A DNA stretch of 64,000 nt from Betaproteobacteria bacterium SCN1 (GTDB lineage Bacteria; Pseudomonadota; Gammaproteobacteria; Burkholderiales; Thiobacillaceae), in the NCBI GenBank assembly GCA_008923315.1, contig WBSF01000002.1, forward strand, positions 186,001 through 250,000, written 5' to 3'. Under the pieces are notes generated by a model. It was given only the letters and a program-made list of their open reading frames with translations, searched no databases and was not told the DNA's origin. Position numbers and translations under genes: made by a program. Position 1 is the first letter of the stretch; each line of letters starts with the position of its first letter. Below are positions 57,468-64,000 of this stretch, piece after piece.

Positions 57468-57797
57468 AGGTTTGCCAACGACGGTTTTTCGGCCGAACCG
57501 GACGTACAACCCGCACCGCACGAATGTCAGGTATCTGGCAGTTAACAGACTGTGGCACAAGCAAACTGTCGAATACGAACCACCTCAATAGTCGAACGCG
57601 GCCCCCCATTGCTGCCGCTAGATATGCCTGCGGCTCACTGGCGTCAATCTGAATACATCGGTTAGCTGCCTGATTGAGCGAGAAATGGCGGCATAATCAT
57701 CCCATTTGGCTCAAAGACGAAAACGCGTAACTTGGCCAGTGAATACAAAAATACTAAGGCGTGCTTTGTATAACCAAAACAAAACTCGGGAGGATTG
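57468..57797. other. Left junction of the lower-GC island
   Basis: A 330-base non-coding stretch in which base composition shifts from GC-rich to more balanced, with A/T runs increasing toward 57790. I see no tRNA, integrase, direct repeat or insertion-sequence end. Promoter for the next gene is expected here but no clear -35/-10 pair was found. The ribosome binding site GGGAGG (57788-57793) precedes the downstream start. Confidence 0.5.
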
Positions 57798-60700
57798 ATG
57801 GCGTTCTCATTGCCGTTCTCAAAGTTCGCTGATTGGAAGCGCACGCTGCTCGCCAGTCGCGATCTCGAACGACCTGATCGTCGAGCGCTCTATCAATATC
57901 GGGTCACGGAAGCGGAATTCATCGAGCTCGAAAGCCTGCTACGCGAATGGCTCGGCAAACTGCTGACACGATTCGATCTCGGCAAAATCACCCAATTGAC
58001 AGGATTCTCGGCACTCTTCGTGCTCTACGCCGCCGAATGGTGGCGTCGCCGCTTCGACGGCGCGCACTGGTCTTGGGACCCCATCCTGCACGATCTCAAC
58101 GCCGACTCCGACGATTGGAATCAATTCCAGCGTAGTGTATGTATCGAACTCGGACTCCGTGACTGGGGGCTAGAGGTTAAAAGAACCGGGGGATTGCGTT
58201 TTCTTGGGAGTGTCGCTGTCCAAGGTGGGCTACCGCTAAAGCTGCTGGCAGAGGCCCGGGGCAAAATCGGCATGTTGCTCAGCCAGGTTCTCAAGCAAGC
58301 CGGGGGCACCAGCATCACCCAAAACGACCTGCTGACCTGGGTCGAAAGCCTGCAAGGCACATTGCCCAAAAGCTACCGGCAGGCGGTCATCTTCGCTTTG
58401 CTTGCTGACGTTGCCTGGACCGTCATTCGCCTGAAAGAGCAAGCCGGTCTCACCGCCACCACGGATGCGATCGCGCGTCTGGACAAGCAAGTCAGCAACT
58501 GGCGCGAGCAATTTCCGCTACCCGTCGACGATGACCACGCTCGCGGTTTGATTGAGCAGCTCGTCCGGGACGCTGCCAAGGTCAAAGCCGAACGGCAGGC
58601 GGCCACGCTACCCGCCGAACGCCAGCTGGAACTCGAAGAAGCTGGTTCATGGTCTCTGCGTTCCAGCCTGACGCTGCCAGACAGCATTTCGACCAGCAAG
58701 CTGGCCAAACTCTTCAGCATGAACCCCGACGAAATGCCGAGGGCAGGAGAGTTGTCCCTCAACGCCGGCAGCCAGCGTCTCACCACTACCATCCGCCGCA
58801 TGGCCGGCCAGGATGGCTACCGAATTGAGCGCAAGCCTTGGGGTTTCTCAGGCCAAACAGCAGCGGAAGAACACCTGCTCCAGCTTTTCACGCCTGACGG
58901 TCGCGTCTGGTCAGTTCCAGCACCCCGAGGCGAATCGCTGGACGACGGCTTACCCTGGATATTTTCAGCGGAAGATTCCTCCAACCGACTATTGCACCAA
59001 GGGGGCGGCAATGTCGCCCCTCTCGAAGCCTTCATTGCTCTGCCGGAGGGGTGGTCATTCACAGCCAGCAGCGACGCAGAAACCAGCATGCAGGGTACGC
59101 TGCCCCAATTTGCTCGCAGCATTTATCGACTGCGCGGCTCGGTTCAGGCCAACGAGGGCAACAGCCTGACTTGCCGCATTCGCACCGGCCAAGCAGGTGC
59201 GCTCGAAGAAAGCTACGAATGGCACGGTCAGCGATTCTGGCTGGATTTCAAAAAGCCCGGCATTGCATTTAAGGGGCTTCCTCAGCTCTATCGCGTTAGC
59301 GATTCAACCAGTCAAAAAGTCGAAGGCAATCCAGGTTGGAGCGTCATCGGTGCGACGACTCATGCGACCGCGCCACTCGTCGGTCCGCTGCAAGCACGCT
59401 ACCCCGCCACAGGTGAGGTCAAGCAGCGCAGCCGCCTGGTCATTCTGCCCCCCAATGCCGCTTTGTCGATCCAAGCACAAGATGCGAAGTCGGGTGTCAT
59501 CAAGCTGGAAAACTGGGGAGCGACTAGCGCCAGAACGCAGACCGAAGGCGTGAGGCTAGACACCAAGCCTCACGGTGCCGATCTGCATCTGGCACTCTCA
59601 GTCGCCTCCGCCGAGCGCACCCCAGAAACGATCGATGCCGAAATCTTCTGGCCGCACAGTACAACTCCGGTCAGGCTGAGCCTTCCCTTTCCCGCAAATG
59701 GTGTCCGGGCTTTCGATGCCAACGAAAAAGAAATTCTCAGCGGCAGCCTGCTTGCCGCACAGCAATTACTCGGCATCAGGCTGCTGATCCTCAGCGGTGG
59801 CCAAAACAGCCGCATGTCGATCGAAATGCGGGTAAATGGTAGTCGCGCCGCGCGCACTCACCAACTCCGCATGCTGCCAGACACGCTCACCTCGGAAGTC
59901 CGTCTCCAGGACTACGCCACCGACATCCAGCATCTGTTTTCCACCGACGACAACCCCGACGCGCGGGTGCATGTTTTGTTGCGCATTGGCGGCAGCGAGC
60001 ACTTCCGCCTCGACATCGCACGCTACGCCGCGAAGCTGGAAAGGCGCAGTAACACCATCAGCCTCGACACCGACGGCAACAAAGCACTCACTCCAGACGA
60101 CATCGCCAATCTGACCGCGCTTGCCCTCCGCCTCGAACACCCCGGCGACGAAGCGATCCAGCTTCAATCCTGCGATTCAGAGGGCGTGCCGACAGGGTCC
60201 TGGCAATTCGATCCCCAGGCGCGCGAACCAGGATGCTGGCTGATCTATCCGAGCCCAGACGCGGTCATGCCGTTTCGCCCAACCCTCTGGCCGGTGCAAG
60301 GAGACCATTCGCTTGCAAGCGGGCTGGCGAACGCCATCAACATCGTCAATCAGGCAGAACGAGAAGCGGCCATCGACGCGGAAATCGAATCCATGTCCTG
60401 GAATTTCATGGATGACGGCTGGACAGAAATAGAGCAGCTGGCCGGACAAGTCGGCCATCTGCCTCTCGCCACGCTCGACATCTGGCGTCGCTTCGCGCAC
60501 TCACCCCATGGAATGGCTTCATTAGCTCTGCGCTTCGGCAATCTGCCGAGCGGATTCCTCGCTCGCTTTGACCAGGAGCTCCCTTTCCTCTGGGAGGCCA
60601 TTACCTTTTCTGCCTGGAAACAAGCGGTGACCTGCTTGCTTGATCAGTGCCAGGAAAGTTACGGATCAGATGCGGGGCGGATCGTCTTCCAAAACCATCT

Positions 60701-61181
60701 CGATTCACGCATCAAGGATATTTCAGCGTTACATGGGGCCTTGCAGTTTTTACTCGGTATCGCCACCGCCGAGCATTCTTCTACCGAGGCCAGGCAGCAG
60801 CTCAACATGCTCAGGCACGTCGGCACATTCGCCCATCAGCAGCTCTTTCAGGGAGAGGACAGCCAGCTCATGCGGCTGCGGCGCTTGCATATCGAAGATC
60901 AGTGGCCATCCGGTTCGAATCAGATTCTCGCTAACGCCCGCAAGCAGACCGACGTTGCAGAGTATCTCTGCCCGGACAAGCTCGACTTCGCCGACGGCGT
61001 CATCAACTTGCCGCTGCTGCTCGCTGCACAGGTTGCCACCAACCAAACCCAAGAATGGTTTGCCGACCCCCAAGCAGTCAATCTCTTGAGATCGCACTTG
61101 GCATTCGATCCCGAATGGTTCGAAGAGGCCTTCAACCAGACCATCGCCCGCTGCCTCTCAGCCGGGCTTCTCTACAACTAA
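57798..61181 (+). CDS. druH: Druantia type III protein DruH (YjiT/STY4851-like)
   Basis: A 1127-residue cytoplasmic protein without signal peptide or visible NTPase motif. The N-terminal region (about 30-90) has LYQYRVTEAEFIELESLL and LFVLYAAEWWRRRFDGAHWSWDPIL, which I recall as the conserved start of the E. coli YjiT / Salmonella STY4851 family. The rest is mostly beta-rich with a helical C-terminus. It lies 9 bases before a DUF1998-type helicase gene, the two-gene layout of type III Druantia anti-phage defence. Codon use is visibly less GC-rich than the neighbours, so it was probably acquired. Family naming is from memory. Confidence 0.75.
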   Translation: MAFSLPFSKFADWKRTLLASRDLERPDRRALYQYRVTEAEFIELESLLREWLGKLLTRFDLGKITQLTGFSALFVLYAAEWWRRRFDGAHWSWDPILHDLNADSDDWNQFQRSVCIELGLRDWGLEVKRTGGLRFLGSVAVQGGLPLKLLAEARGKIGMLLSQVLKQAGGTSITQNDLLTWVESLQGTLPKSYRQAVIFALLADVAWTVIRLKEQAGLTATTDAIARLDKQVSNWREQFPLPVDDDHARGLIEQLVRDAAKVKAERQAATLPAERQLELEEAGSWSLRSSLTLPDSISTSKLAKLFSMNPDEMPRAGELSLNAGSQRLTTTIRRMAGQDGYRIERKPWGFSGQTAAEEHLLQLFTPDGRVWSVPAPRGESLDDGLPWIFSAEDSSNRLLHQGGGNVAPLEAFIALPEGWSFTASSDAETSMQGTLPQFARSIYRLRGSVQANEGNSLTCRIRTGQAGALEESYEWHGQRFWLDFKKPGIAFKGLPQLYRVSDSTSQKVEGNPGWSVIGATTHATAPLVGPLQARYPATGEVKQRSRLVILPPNAALSIQAQDAKSGVIKLENWGATSARTQTEGVRLDTKPHGADLHLALSVASAERTPETIDAEIFWPHSTTPVRLSLPFPANGVRAFDANEKEILSGSLLAAQQLLGIRLLILSGGQNSRMSIEMRVNGSRAARTHQLRMLPDTLTSEVRLQDYATDIQHLFSTDDNPDARVHVLLRIGGSEHFRLDIARYAAKLERRSNTISLDTDGNKALTPDDIANLTALALRLEHPGDEAIQLQSCDSEGVPTGSWQFDPQAREPGCWLIYPSPDAVMPFRPTLWPVQGDHSLASGLANAINIVNQAEREAAIDAEIESMSWNFMDDGWTEIEQLAGQVGHLPLATLDIWRRFAHSPHGMASLALRFGNLPSGFLARFDQELPFLWEAITFSAWKQAVTCLLDQCQESYGSDAGRIVFQNHLDSRIKDISALHGALQFLLGIATAEHSSTEARQQLNMLRHVGTFAHQQLFQGEDSQLMRLRRLHIEDQWPSGSNQILANARKQTDVAEYLCPDKLDFADGVINLPLLLAAQVATNQTQEWFADPQAVNLLRSHLAFDPEWFEEAFNQTIARCLSAGLLYN

Positions 61182-61190
61182 GGAGCACGG

Positions 61191-64000
61191 ATGAGCCAGA
61201 CGTTTTTTGCCGAGCTATTGCCAGCGCTGGCGAGTCGTGCGAAACATGCCGCCATCAGCCGTCTGGGCTTTGCCAACGTGCCGCTGCGCCGCTACCTGGC
61301 CGAAATGTTTGATCTCCCCTATGGCGAACCGGGAGCATTCCTCGCCGATCCGACTTTTGAAGCCACCTTCGGCTGGATGAAAGCAGATCAGCGCATGGCT
61401 GATCTCGCAGGCACCTTGCTTTCCCCGTCCCTCGTCCAGGCAATGGACAATCCTCCAGCGGAGTTGGTGAGAGACTACCGTTTCCCGCAGGATCAATACC
61501 CGTATCTTCACCAACTTGAAGCCTGGCGCATTCTCTCGCGCTCCACGCCGCAATCCATCGTCGTTGCGAGCGGCACCGGTTCCGGTAAGACGGAATGCTT
61601 CATGGTTCCAATCCTCGATCGCCTGGCAAGGCTGCGTGAAGAAAAAAAAGGCCAGTTGGTCGGTGTCAGGGCACTGTTTCTTTACCCCTTGAACGCGCTG
61701 ATCAACAGCCAACGCGAGCGCTTGCGCGCATGGACGCACGCTTTCGACGGAGACGTTCACTTTTGTCTCTACAACGGCAACACTCCAGAACGCCCCGACC
61801 CGACCTGGCTTCAACGGGAGAATCCCTGCGAAATTGGCGACCGGGAAAGACTCAGGGCAACGCCGCCACCCATCCTGGTGACCAATGCCACGATGCTCGA
61901 ATACATGCTGGTGCGCACAGCGGACGCGCCGATCCTGGCGCAATCGCAAGGCAAACTCGAATGGGTTGTCCTCGACGAAGCGCATACCTACGTCGGATCG
62001 CAAGCCGCTGAAGCAGCCTTGCTCATTCGCCGCGTGTTGTTTGCTTTCGGCGTTTCGTCGGACCAAGTTCGCTTCGTCGCCACATCAGCCACCATCGGCG
62101 ATCCGGAAGGAGAAGCCGGCAAGAAGCTCAAACGCTTCCTGGCAGAAGTCGCTGGCGTTTCCCCGGATCAAGTTCATCTGGTTGCCGGGCAGCGCCGCAT
62201 CCCCACTCTGGGCGGCAAGAAGCCCAAGACCCATACGCCACAGGACACGCTCGCCAGTATCGACGCGGGTAGTGAAACTTCGCCGTCGCGCTACGACGCG
62301 CTCGCCAACGACATCACCGCCCACAGATTGCGAGATTTATTTGTCGGCGATCCAAGCAAGCCGCCCGTAGCAAGACTGTCGGAAATTTGCCAAACCATCG
62401 GTCTCGACAGACTAACGTTGCGTGAGCAGCAGCTTAATGCTTTGCGCTGGATGGACTTGCTCAGCGGCACTCGCGACAACACGGGTGCTGGAACTGACGA
62501 CGGAGAGTCATTCTTGCCAGTCCGCGCCCACTTCTTTCATCAAACGATGTCTGGTTTGTGGGCTTGCGCGGATGCGAAATGCCGGAATAAATCCGGATCA
62601 GCTTTGGATGACAATGAATGGCCCTTCGGTCAGGTCTATTTCGAACCGAGAAAGCATTGCGACTGCGGCTGCCCGGCCTATGAAGTCGTGACATGCAGCG
62701 GATGTGGAACGGCCCATCTTCAAGCCGGGGAATTCAAAAACCGGCTCGCGCATCTACAAACGTTCGCAGCGCTGGATGAGTTCGAACTAGAGGCGGAGCC
62801 TGGCGAAATCGCCGACGAAGAGGATCAAGCAGAGGACACCGAAGATGCCGCAGCGGGCCGCCATAAGAAAGTGCTCATCGTCAATCGTCATTTGCCCAAT
62901 GTCGGCCCATTGGACGTTGAGCGAACCTCGCGCCTGATCACAGAGGCATCAGAAATGACCTTGCGTTTGCTCGCGCAGGAGGAAGGCGAGGATGGCTTGT
63001 CTTGCCCCGTTTGTGGCAGCCATTCGACTCAGGATGAAAGACTCTTCCAGGCAAGCAGACTAGGCGCCCCATTCCTGCTGGGGAACATTCTCCCCACACT
63101 TCTCGAATACGCACCGGACGGCGAGAAACCTGCTGACCACCCCTGTCGCGGGCGGCGCTTGCTGACCTTCAACGACAGTCGCCAAGGCACGGCGCGCATG
63201 GCGGCAAAGCTTCAACAAGATGCAGAACGCAATCGTGTGCGCGGACTGGTTTACCACCTCACCTTACAACACGGTCGTGGTGCGGCAGGCGCGCAAGCGG
63301 TTGCAATCGATAATGAAATCAGAACGCTCGAACAGATACCTGAAATAGCCCGCAATGCAGCGCTCAACGAACTCATCGACAACAAGCGCAAGGAGTTTTT
63401 GAAACTAACTCGCCCAAGTCCGATCGCCTTCAATGACCTGGCGCAATATCTCGCCAATCAGGGCAAGGACTTCGAATACATGCTCGCGCATTACCGTCGC
63501 ATCGCACCAGGATCATTCAGCGATAGCAGCGGCCCTGTCGAGTTGGCGAAGATGTTTCTGGTTCGAGAATTCGGCAGACGCCCCAAGCGCTTGAACAACC
63601 TTGAAAGCATGGGTTTGGTCGCTATTCGCTATCCAGCGATTGACAGCATCCTCCAGGTTCCTGCTCCCATCGCACAAACCACAGACTTCGATTTGTCAGC
63701 TTGGCAGGAATTCCTCAAGCTCTGCCTAGACTTCTTCGTCAGAGCCGGAGGCTCGCTGGCCATCTCATCGAACTGGCGCAATTGGCTTGGCATGCCATTT
63801 CCACAAACCCAGCTGGTAACTCGGGATGAAGCGAATACGAGCCGCACACAGCGCCGCTGGCCTCGCGCCAGGCGAGGTGGGCTGCGAAGCACGCTCGTGC
63901 GCCTGCTCTCCTACGCATTGAAAGCGGACATACAAACTTCGTACGGCGAAGACCGCGTAGACACTGTTCTCCTTGCTGCCTGGGATGCCCTGAACTCTGC
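61191..64000 (+). CDS. druE: Druantia DEAH-box helicase DruE (3' end outside window)
   Basis: The first 936 residues of a large superfamily 2 helicase; the frame is open to the window edge. Motifs: Walker A GTGSGKT (128-134), FLYPLNALINSQRERL (motif Ia), TNATMLEYML, DEAH (262-265), SAT (299-301). Cysteine clusters suggest zinc sites at about 455-510 (CADAKCRN, CDCGCPAYEVVTCSGCG) and 605 (CPVCGS). TFNDSRQGTARMAAKLQQD, near 660, is typical of DUF1998 helicases. The ATG has AAGGAG upstream. DISARM DrmA or Dpd helicases are relatives, but the adjacent DruH-like gene favours Druantia III. Confidence 0.82.
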   Translation, partial: MSQTFFAELLPALASRAKHAAISRLGFANVPLRRYLAEMFDLPYGEPGAFLADPTFEATFGWMKADQRMADLAGTLLSPSLVQAMDNPPAELVRDYRFPQDQYPYLHQLEAWRILSRSTPQSIVVASGTGSGKTECFMVPILDRLARLREEKKGQLVGVRALFLYPLNALINSQRERLRAWTHAFDGDVHFCLYNGNTPERPDPTWLQRENPCEIGDRERLRATPPPILVTNATMLEYMLVRTADAPILAQSQGKLEWVVLDEAHTYVGSQAAEAALLIRRVLFAFGVSSDQVRFVATSATIGDPEGEAGKKLKRFLAEVAGVSPDQVHLVAGQRRIPTLGGKKPKTHTPQDTLASIDAGSETSPSRYDALANDITAHRLRDLFVGDPSKPPVARLSEICQTIGLDRLTLREQQLNALRWMDLLSGTRDNTGAGTDDGESFLPVRAHFFHQTMSGLWACADAKCRNKSGSALDDNEWPFGQVYFEPRKHCDCGCPAYEVVTCSGCGTAHLQAGEFKNRLAHLQTFAALDEFELEAEPGEIADEEDQAEDTEDAAAGRHKKVLIVNRHLPNVGPLDVERTSRLITEASEMTLRLLAQEEGEDGLSCPVCGSHSTQDERLFQASRLGAPFLLGNILPTLLEYAPDGEKPADHPCRGRRLLTFNDSRQGTARMAAKLQQDAERNRVRGLVYHLTLQHGRGAAGAQAVAIDNEIRTLEQIPEIARNAALNELIDNKRKEFLKLTRPSPIAFNDLAQYLANQGKDFEYMLAHYRRIAPGSFSDSSGPVELAKMFLVREFGRRPKRLNNLESMGLVAIRYPAIDSILQVPAPIAQTTDFDLSAWQEFLKLCLDFFVRAGGSLAISSNWRNWLGMPFPQTQLVTRDEANTSRTQRRWPRARRGGLRSTLVRLLSYALKADIQTSYGEDRVDTVLLAAWDALNS

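Follow-up and report, generated by a model that had tools for sequence, protein, structure and literature searches.

A probable complete Druantia type III operon from a betaproteobacterial sub-clade

Two adjacent genes, druH and druE, were found near the right end of the window, which is the whole 64,000-nucleotide stretch analysed here (bases 186001–250000 of contig C9, 253,513 bases, in genome G000 of 9 contigs and 3.09 Mb). Judged from sequence homology, they very probably make up a Druantia type III operon that is complete and probably functional and belongs to a betaproteobacterial sub-clade. Druantia type III itself has already been described, and the locus adds a complete further copy. 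All features given below lie on the + strand.

The druH gene (57798–61181) encodes a protein of 1127 residues of the DruH/YjiT (STY4851/ECs_5259) family, the proposed phage sensor. Its ATG is at 57798, with an alternative TTG start at 57795, and a putative ribosome-binding site (CGGGAGGA; Shine-Dalgarno-like GGGAGGA) was read just upstream of the ATG at 57787–57794. A spacer of 9 bases (61182–61190) contains GGAG and, together with the end of druH, carries the presumed ribosome-binding site of druE (AAGGAG). The N-terminal 936 codons of druE are in the window (61191–64000), where the frame is open to the end. When the contig was read to its end, druE was found to be intact and to encode 2084 residues, with the stop at L002:9945, equivalent to window position 67445. 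The open reading frame coordinates agree exactly with the original prediction of a 1127-residue YjiT/STY4851-like protein, followed after 9 bases by a large DEAH helicase gene that runs past the window edge. It had also been predicted that the block is less GC-rich than the remaining window, and values of 0.57–0.60 were observed for the block versus about 0.62–0.73 elsewhere.

Profile and structure searches identified both proteins over nearly their full lengths, as expected of the DruH and DruE pair that had been predicted. DruH matched the PADLOC profile DruH3 (PDLC00048) with E=1.1e-129 over nearly the whole protein, the NCBIfam model NF038336 (YjiT/STY4851 family) with 719.8 bits at a cut-off of 150, and the solved E. 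coli DruH (PDB 9TUD) with E=6.7e-39. DruE matched the PADLOC profile DruE3 (PDLC00037) with 2340.6 bits over residues 2–2082 of 2084, and the solved E. coli DruE (PDB 9TU7) with E=0; the PADLOC profiles DruE1, DruE2 and DruE4 gave at most 571 bits. With these profile scores, chance is excluded for both proteins. The features of Druantia type III found here are thus a DruH-family protein, a full-length type III DruE with helicase and DUF1998/MrfA regions in one protein, and a directly adjacent druH–druE pair, these two being the only genes common to related loci.

The YprA family of defence helicases has a common ancestor (PMC12458937), and the DrmA and DpdJ profiles of PADLOC match the helicase core as well, with 51 and 91 bits, respectively. 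It could be supposed from this that the helicase is part of a different defence system of this family (DISARM DrmA, Dpd DpdJ, ARMADA or BRIGADE) and that the first gene is an unrelated neighbour. Against these values, however, stand the 2341 bits of DruE3, a DruH partner, a DUF1998 region fused within the helicase, unlike that of DISARM, and a DruE C-terminus homologous to the PLD region of the solved DruE, not to the Vsr nuclease of ARMADA. The profile scores, together with the partner gene, refute assignment to such another system, which we regard as extremely improbable. DISARM (DrmA/DrmB) was rejected on the fused rather than separate DUF1998, the DruH partner and the low DrmA score; Dpd was rejected on its DpdJ scores, the in-window part of DruE reaching 71 bits against an NCBIfam cut-off of 800; and ARMADA and BRIGADE were ruled out by the profile scores, by the gene that accompanies the helicase and by the domains fused in it. 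To the left of druHE, no partner genes of DISARM or Dpd were found. The two outcomes that had been named as counting against the original prediction, a first protein without a DruH profile match and a helicase grouping with DrmA or Dpd, were therefore both contradicted.

The domains of DruE were located by Pfam models, with PF00270 (DEAD), PF00271 (Helicase_C) and PF09369 (MZB) all above cut-off. The RecA1 DEAD/DEAH domain covers residues 107–303 (61509–62099; PF00270 E=6.7e-20), and contains Walker A (SGTGSGKT with K133, 61569–61592), DEAH at residue 262 (61974–61985) and SAT at residue 299 (62085–62093). The cysteine pairs C459/C464, C490/C492, C502/C505 and C605/C608 (62565–63014) probably form a zinc-binding module inside the helicase region, as in the family description in PMC12458937. 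The MZB domain (MrfA zinc-binding, DUF1998-type) was found at residues 1588–1667 (E=7e-10). The Walker A, DEAH, SAT and cysteine clusters that had been read in the helicase were all recovered. The DUF1998-type segment that had been claimed with them is present and lies in the C-terminal part of DruE, where the proposed check had looked for it, but it is outside the window, and the cysteines seen within the window are those of the helicase region upstream of it.

Residue conservation was inspected in alignments of 13 DruE and 12 DruH sequences, including the copy described here. The copy on a Klebsiella plasmid (L046) carries the residue named in PMC13192584 at 43 of 46 DruE and 26 of 26 DruH positions with zero offset; because its residues agree with the published numbering, it was used as the reference for E. 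coli numbering. In this numbering, the DruE ATPase residues K121, R165, D251, E252 and R1135 are identical in all 13 sequences, and so are the residues of the single-stranded DNA (ssDNA) path (N156, R207, N221, Y227, R231, R647, R652 and R1372). The eight helicase-region cysteines and the DUF1998 cysteines 1655/1659/1663/1666 are also invariant among the 13. Residues 68–144 of DruH (57999–58229) correspond in the 12-sequence alignment to E. coli residues 63–137, the N-terminal surface published as controlling activation, for which mutant data were given in PMC13192584. This surface is mostly conserved: E75, R79, W88, W115, L129, G136 and G137 are invariant, F69 is kept in 10/12 and R78 in 11/12. 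The sequence establishes for this copy the order of the genes, homology over the full length, intact residues of the ATPase, the ssDNA path and the zinc sites, and a PLD region homologous to that of the solved DruE.

Conservation was different at several other published positions. DruE residues H1415, K1546, H1572, H1574 and R2075, reportedly needed for higher-order assembly in E. coli, lie in weakly aligned stretches and are not conserved in this copy or across the family. The same was observed for R1258 of the E. coli PLD pocket, which falls in a weakly aligned stretch, and for the DruH ATP-dimer residues N672, Y733 and D735, where alignment is also weak. The lack of conservation at the published interface residues of the C-terminal domain (CTD), at R1258 and at the ATP-dimer residues suggests only tentatively that the corresponding steps may differ from those in E. 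coli. Among the invariant positions in the C-terminal 400 residues of DruE are Y1920, D1922, R1923, Y1924 and W1978 (own numbering), together with H2011-x-R2013, D2030, G2032, Y2035 and W2036, which form an H-x-R...D-x-G-x-x-Y-W signature. Type III DruE is expected to carry two C-terminal PLD-type domains, the last of which is predicted to be active; here, the C-terminal 404 residues alone matched the PLD region of 9TU7 with E=1.7e-34. We propose that the invariant positions from Y1920 to W2036 represent the PLD active-site signature. H2037, the E. coli counterpart of H2011, goes unmentioned in PMC13192584.

Druantia type III of E. coli is sensitive to loss of RecD. A recD profile search of the G000 genome gave no match, while the E. 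coli control was positive; an AddAB-like helicase-nuclease pair was found at G000:C4:361437-365445, with open frames of about 1183 and 954 residues. If druHE works in its host, the profile searches suggest that it would do so without RecD. Together with the non-conserved CTD-interface residues and R1258 in this clade, these results could indicate a Druantia III lineage whose effector step is unlike that of E. coli, in which DruE would act through another oligomer interface and PLD pocket, the H-x-R...D-x-G-x-x-Y-W signature and not R1258 would be the true nuclease site, and the partner would be of the AddAB type rather than RecBCD. Interface residues drift easily, however, and the alignment is weak in these stretches. 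In the trees, a long branch leads to the Klebsiella/E. coli type, so it may be E. coli that is unusual in these details. A separate effector step is therefore considered possible but somewhat doubtful.

The pair is a full-length homologue of the E. coli ECOR19/Klebsiella type (cluster 11; 9TU7 and 9TUD), with identical ATPase and ssDNA-path residues, although identity to the Klebsiella copy is only about 35% for DruE and about 20% for DruH, and the CTD-interface, R1258 and DruH ATP-dimer residues differ. The nearest copies were found in a groundwater betaproteobacterial MAG (JACPUX010000072, L043; DruH 86% and DruE 90% identical) and in Tepidiphilus olei J18 (L044; 75% and 80%, respectively), both as a like two-gene unit with an equally short spacer. 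Their flanks are unrelated to those of the present locus. L043 has formate dehydrogenase genes and a Fic protein there; next to the L044 pair lie a type I methyltransferase fragment, a transposase-like open reading frame and a Kef-type antiporter. At the three loci, the DNA is similar only from the druH start to the druE stop. Since this similarity is bounded by the gene ends and the flanks are unrelated, it is the two genes alone that move or are kept as a unit. Conserved mobile-element ends around the pair were considered and rejected, as no similarity between the loci extends beyond the two genes. In trees of DruE and of DruH, the same groupings were seen, with DruH more divergent, as has been reported for the family in PMC13192584.

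DruH was absent from 40 other sampled genomes, 24 of them of the same genus. The druHE pair is apparently a recent acquisition, without counterpart in the other sampled members of the genus. In a class-wide sample, the YjiT-family model matched 12 of 369 genomes, 10 of them above cut-off. An intact DruE directly follows DruH in eight of the nine other above-cut-off genomes (in one of the eight, druH is cut by a contig end), and the ninth locus has a rearranged druE. Broken Druantia III loci were observed on Marinobacter nauticus pMAQU02 (L047, 13427-21094), where druE is annotated in two parts around the IS1380-family element ISMaq4, and in G287 (L075, 4093-13823), where a druE fragment is inverted and rearranged. 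On the Klebsiella pneumoniae plasmid (L046, 9986-22352), the gene directly after Druantia III encodes a further large DEAD/DEAH helicase and may belong to ARMADA II, as in published E. coli arrays. Zorya II and ARMADA II, which frequently accompany cluster 11 (PMC13192584), were not seen in the readable flank of the present locus.

That flank, on the left, consists of housekeeping genes (dihydroorotate (DHO) dehydrogenase, dicarboxylate symporter, radical SAM, D-Ala-D-Ala carboxypeptidase and AsmA), by which a larger defence island on this side was ruled out. When an empty site was looked for, synteny with two genomes of the same genus was found to reach the carboxypeptidase or AsmA gene, and the gene after AsmA in one genome (G002) had no match in the G000 genome. 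On the right, C9 ends 68 bases past the druE stop, and an IS-like repeat begins 3–4 bases past druE. This repeat is multi-copy with near-terminal inverted ends (GCTGTAGAAAAA-CCCC) and was seen at the ends of C9 (L002:9949-10013), C6 and C7, the C9 copy abutting druE. The opposite end of apparently the same element was found at the C1 start, C2 end and C5 end. As the C9 end sequence is common to the C6 and C7 ends and the opposite end lies on three others, the assembly was interrupted by an insertion sequence present in several copies, and the right neighbour of druE is probably the C1 start, C2 end or C5 end. No second phage-defence system was recognised in 12 kb at these three places, apart from a type II methyltransferase on C2, next to an integron-type integrase. 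The C2 end (L035:5803-12000) bears an integron-like array with a tyrosine integrase and an attC-like palindrome at the contig end; one of its cassette-sized genes encodes this type II DNA methyltransferase, and another matches HEPN weakly.

The adjoining repeat and the broken loci L047 and L075 raise the question of whether the pair, although a true Druantia III by descent, has decayed or lost its activity in this strain, for instance because the insertion sequence silences it or cuts it off. But both frames are intact and of full length with all catalytic helicase residues, the insertion is outside the gene, and the relatives with 86–90% identity are likewise intact. Decay is thus judged unlikely, and a complete, probably functional operon remains the preferred reading.

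The mechanism of Druantia III had been called poorly understood in the original prediction; this no longer holds, as it is by now largely described in two papers of 2026 (PMC13192584 and PMC13316683). According to PMC13192584, DruE is a dimeric helicase that loads on 3'-ssDNA, has two C-terminal PLD domains and cuts long DNA, and DruH, which has dimer-dependent nuclease activity, probably senses a baseplate protein, activation being controlled by its N-terminal surface. In Mycolicibacterium smegmatis, a minor tail protein activates DruH–DruE, and phage DNA circularisation and replication are blocked with an abortive outcome (PMC13316683). The two papers disagree on whether DruH and DruE form a stable complex and on which protein cuts DNA. 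The M. smegmatis pair is likewise a two-gene anti-phage system with a DUF1998 helicase, but its DruE has 1667 residues and was described without a canonical nuclease domain, whereas the DruE found here has 2084 residues and a C-terminal PLD region.

If the pair works like the homologous systems of E. coli ECOR19 and M. smegmatis, DruH would sense a late-made structural protein of the phage, from the tail or baseplate, and its N-terminal surface would switch the pathway on. Dimeric DruE, an SF2 helicase of the YprA/MrfA family, would then load onto 3' single-stranded ends of replicating phage DNA and track on ssDNA beneath its OB-DUF1998 canopy, and its C-terminal PLD-type nuclease domain would cut DNA, halting phage replication. 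By the same analogy, expression, phage sensing, cleavage and protection may be expected in the present host.

The copy leaves the picture of Druantia III unchanged. It is intact and distant, and comes from a host without detectable RecD. With such a distant copy, the conserved core of Druantia III, namely the ssDNA-loading helicase, the N-terminal switch of DruH and the proposed PLD H-x-R signature, can be told apart from traits found only in the E. coli representative.
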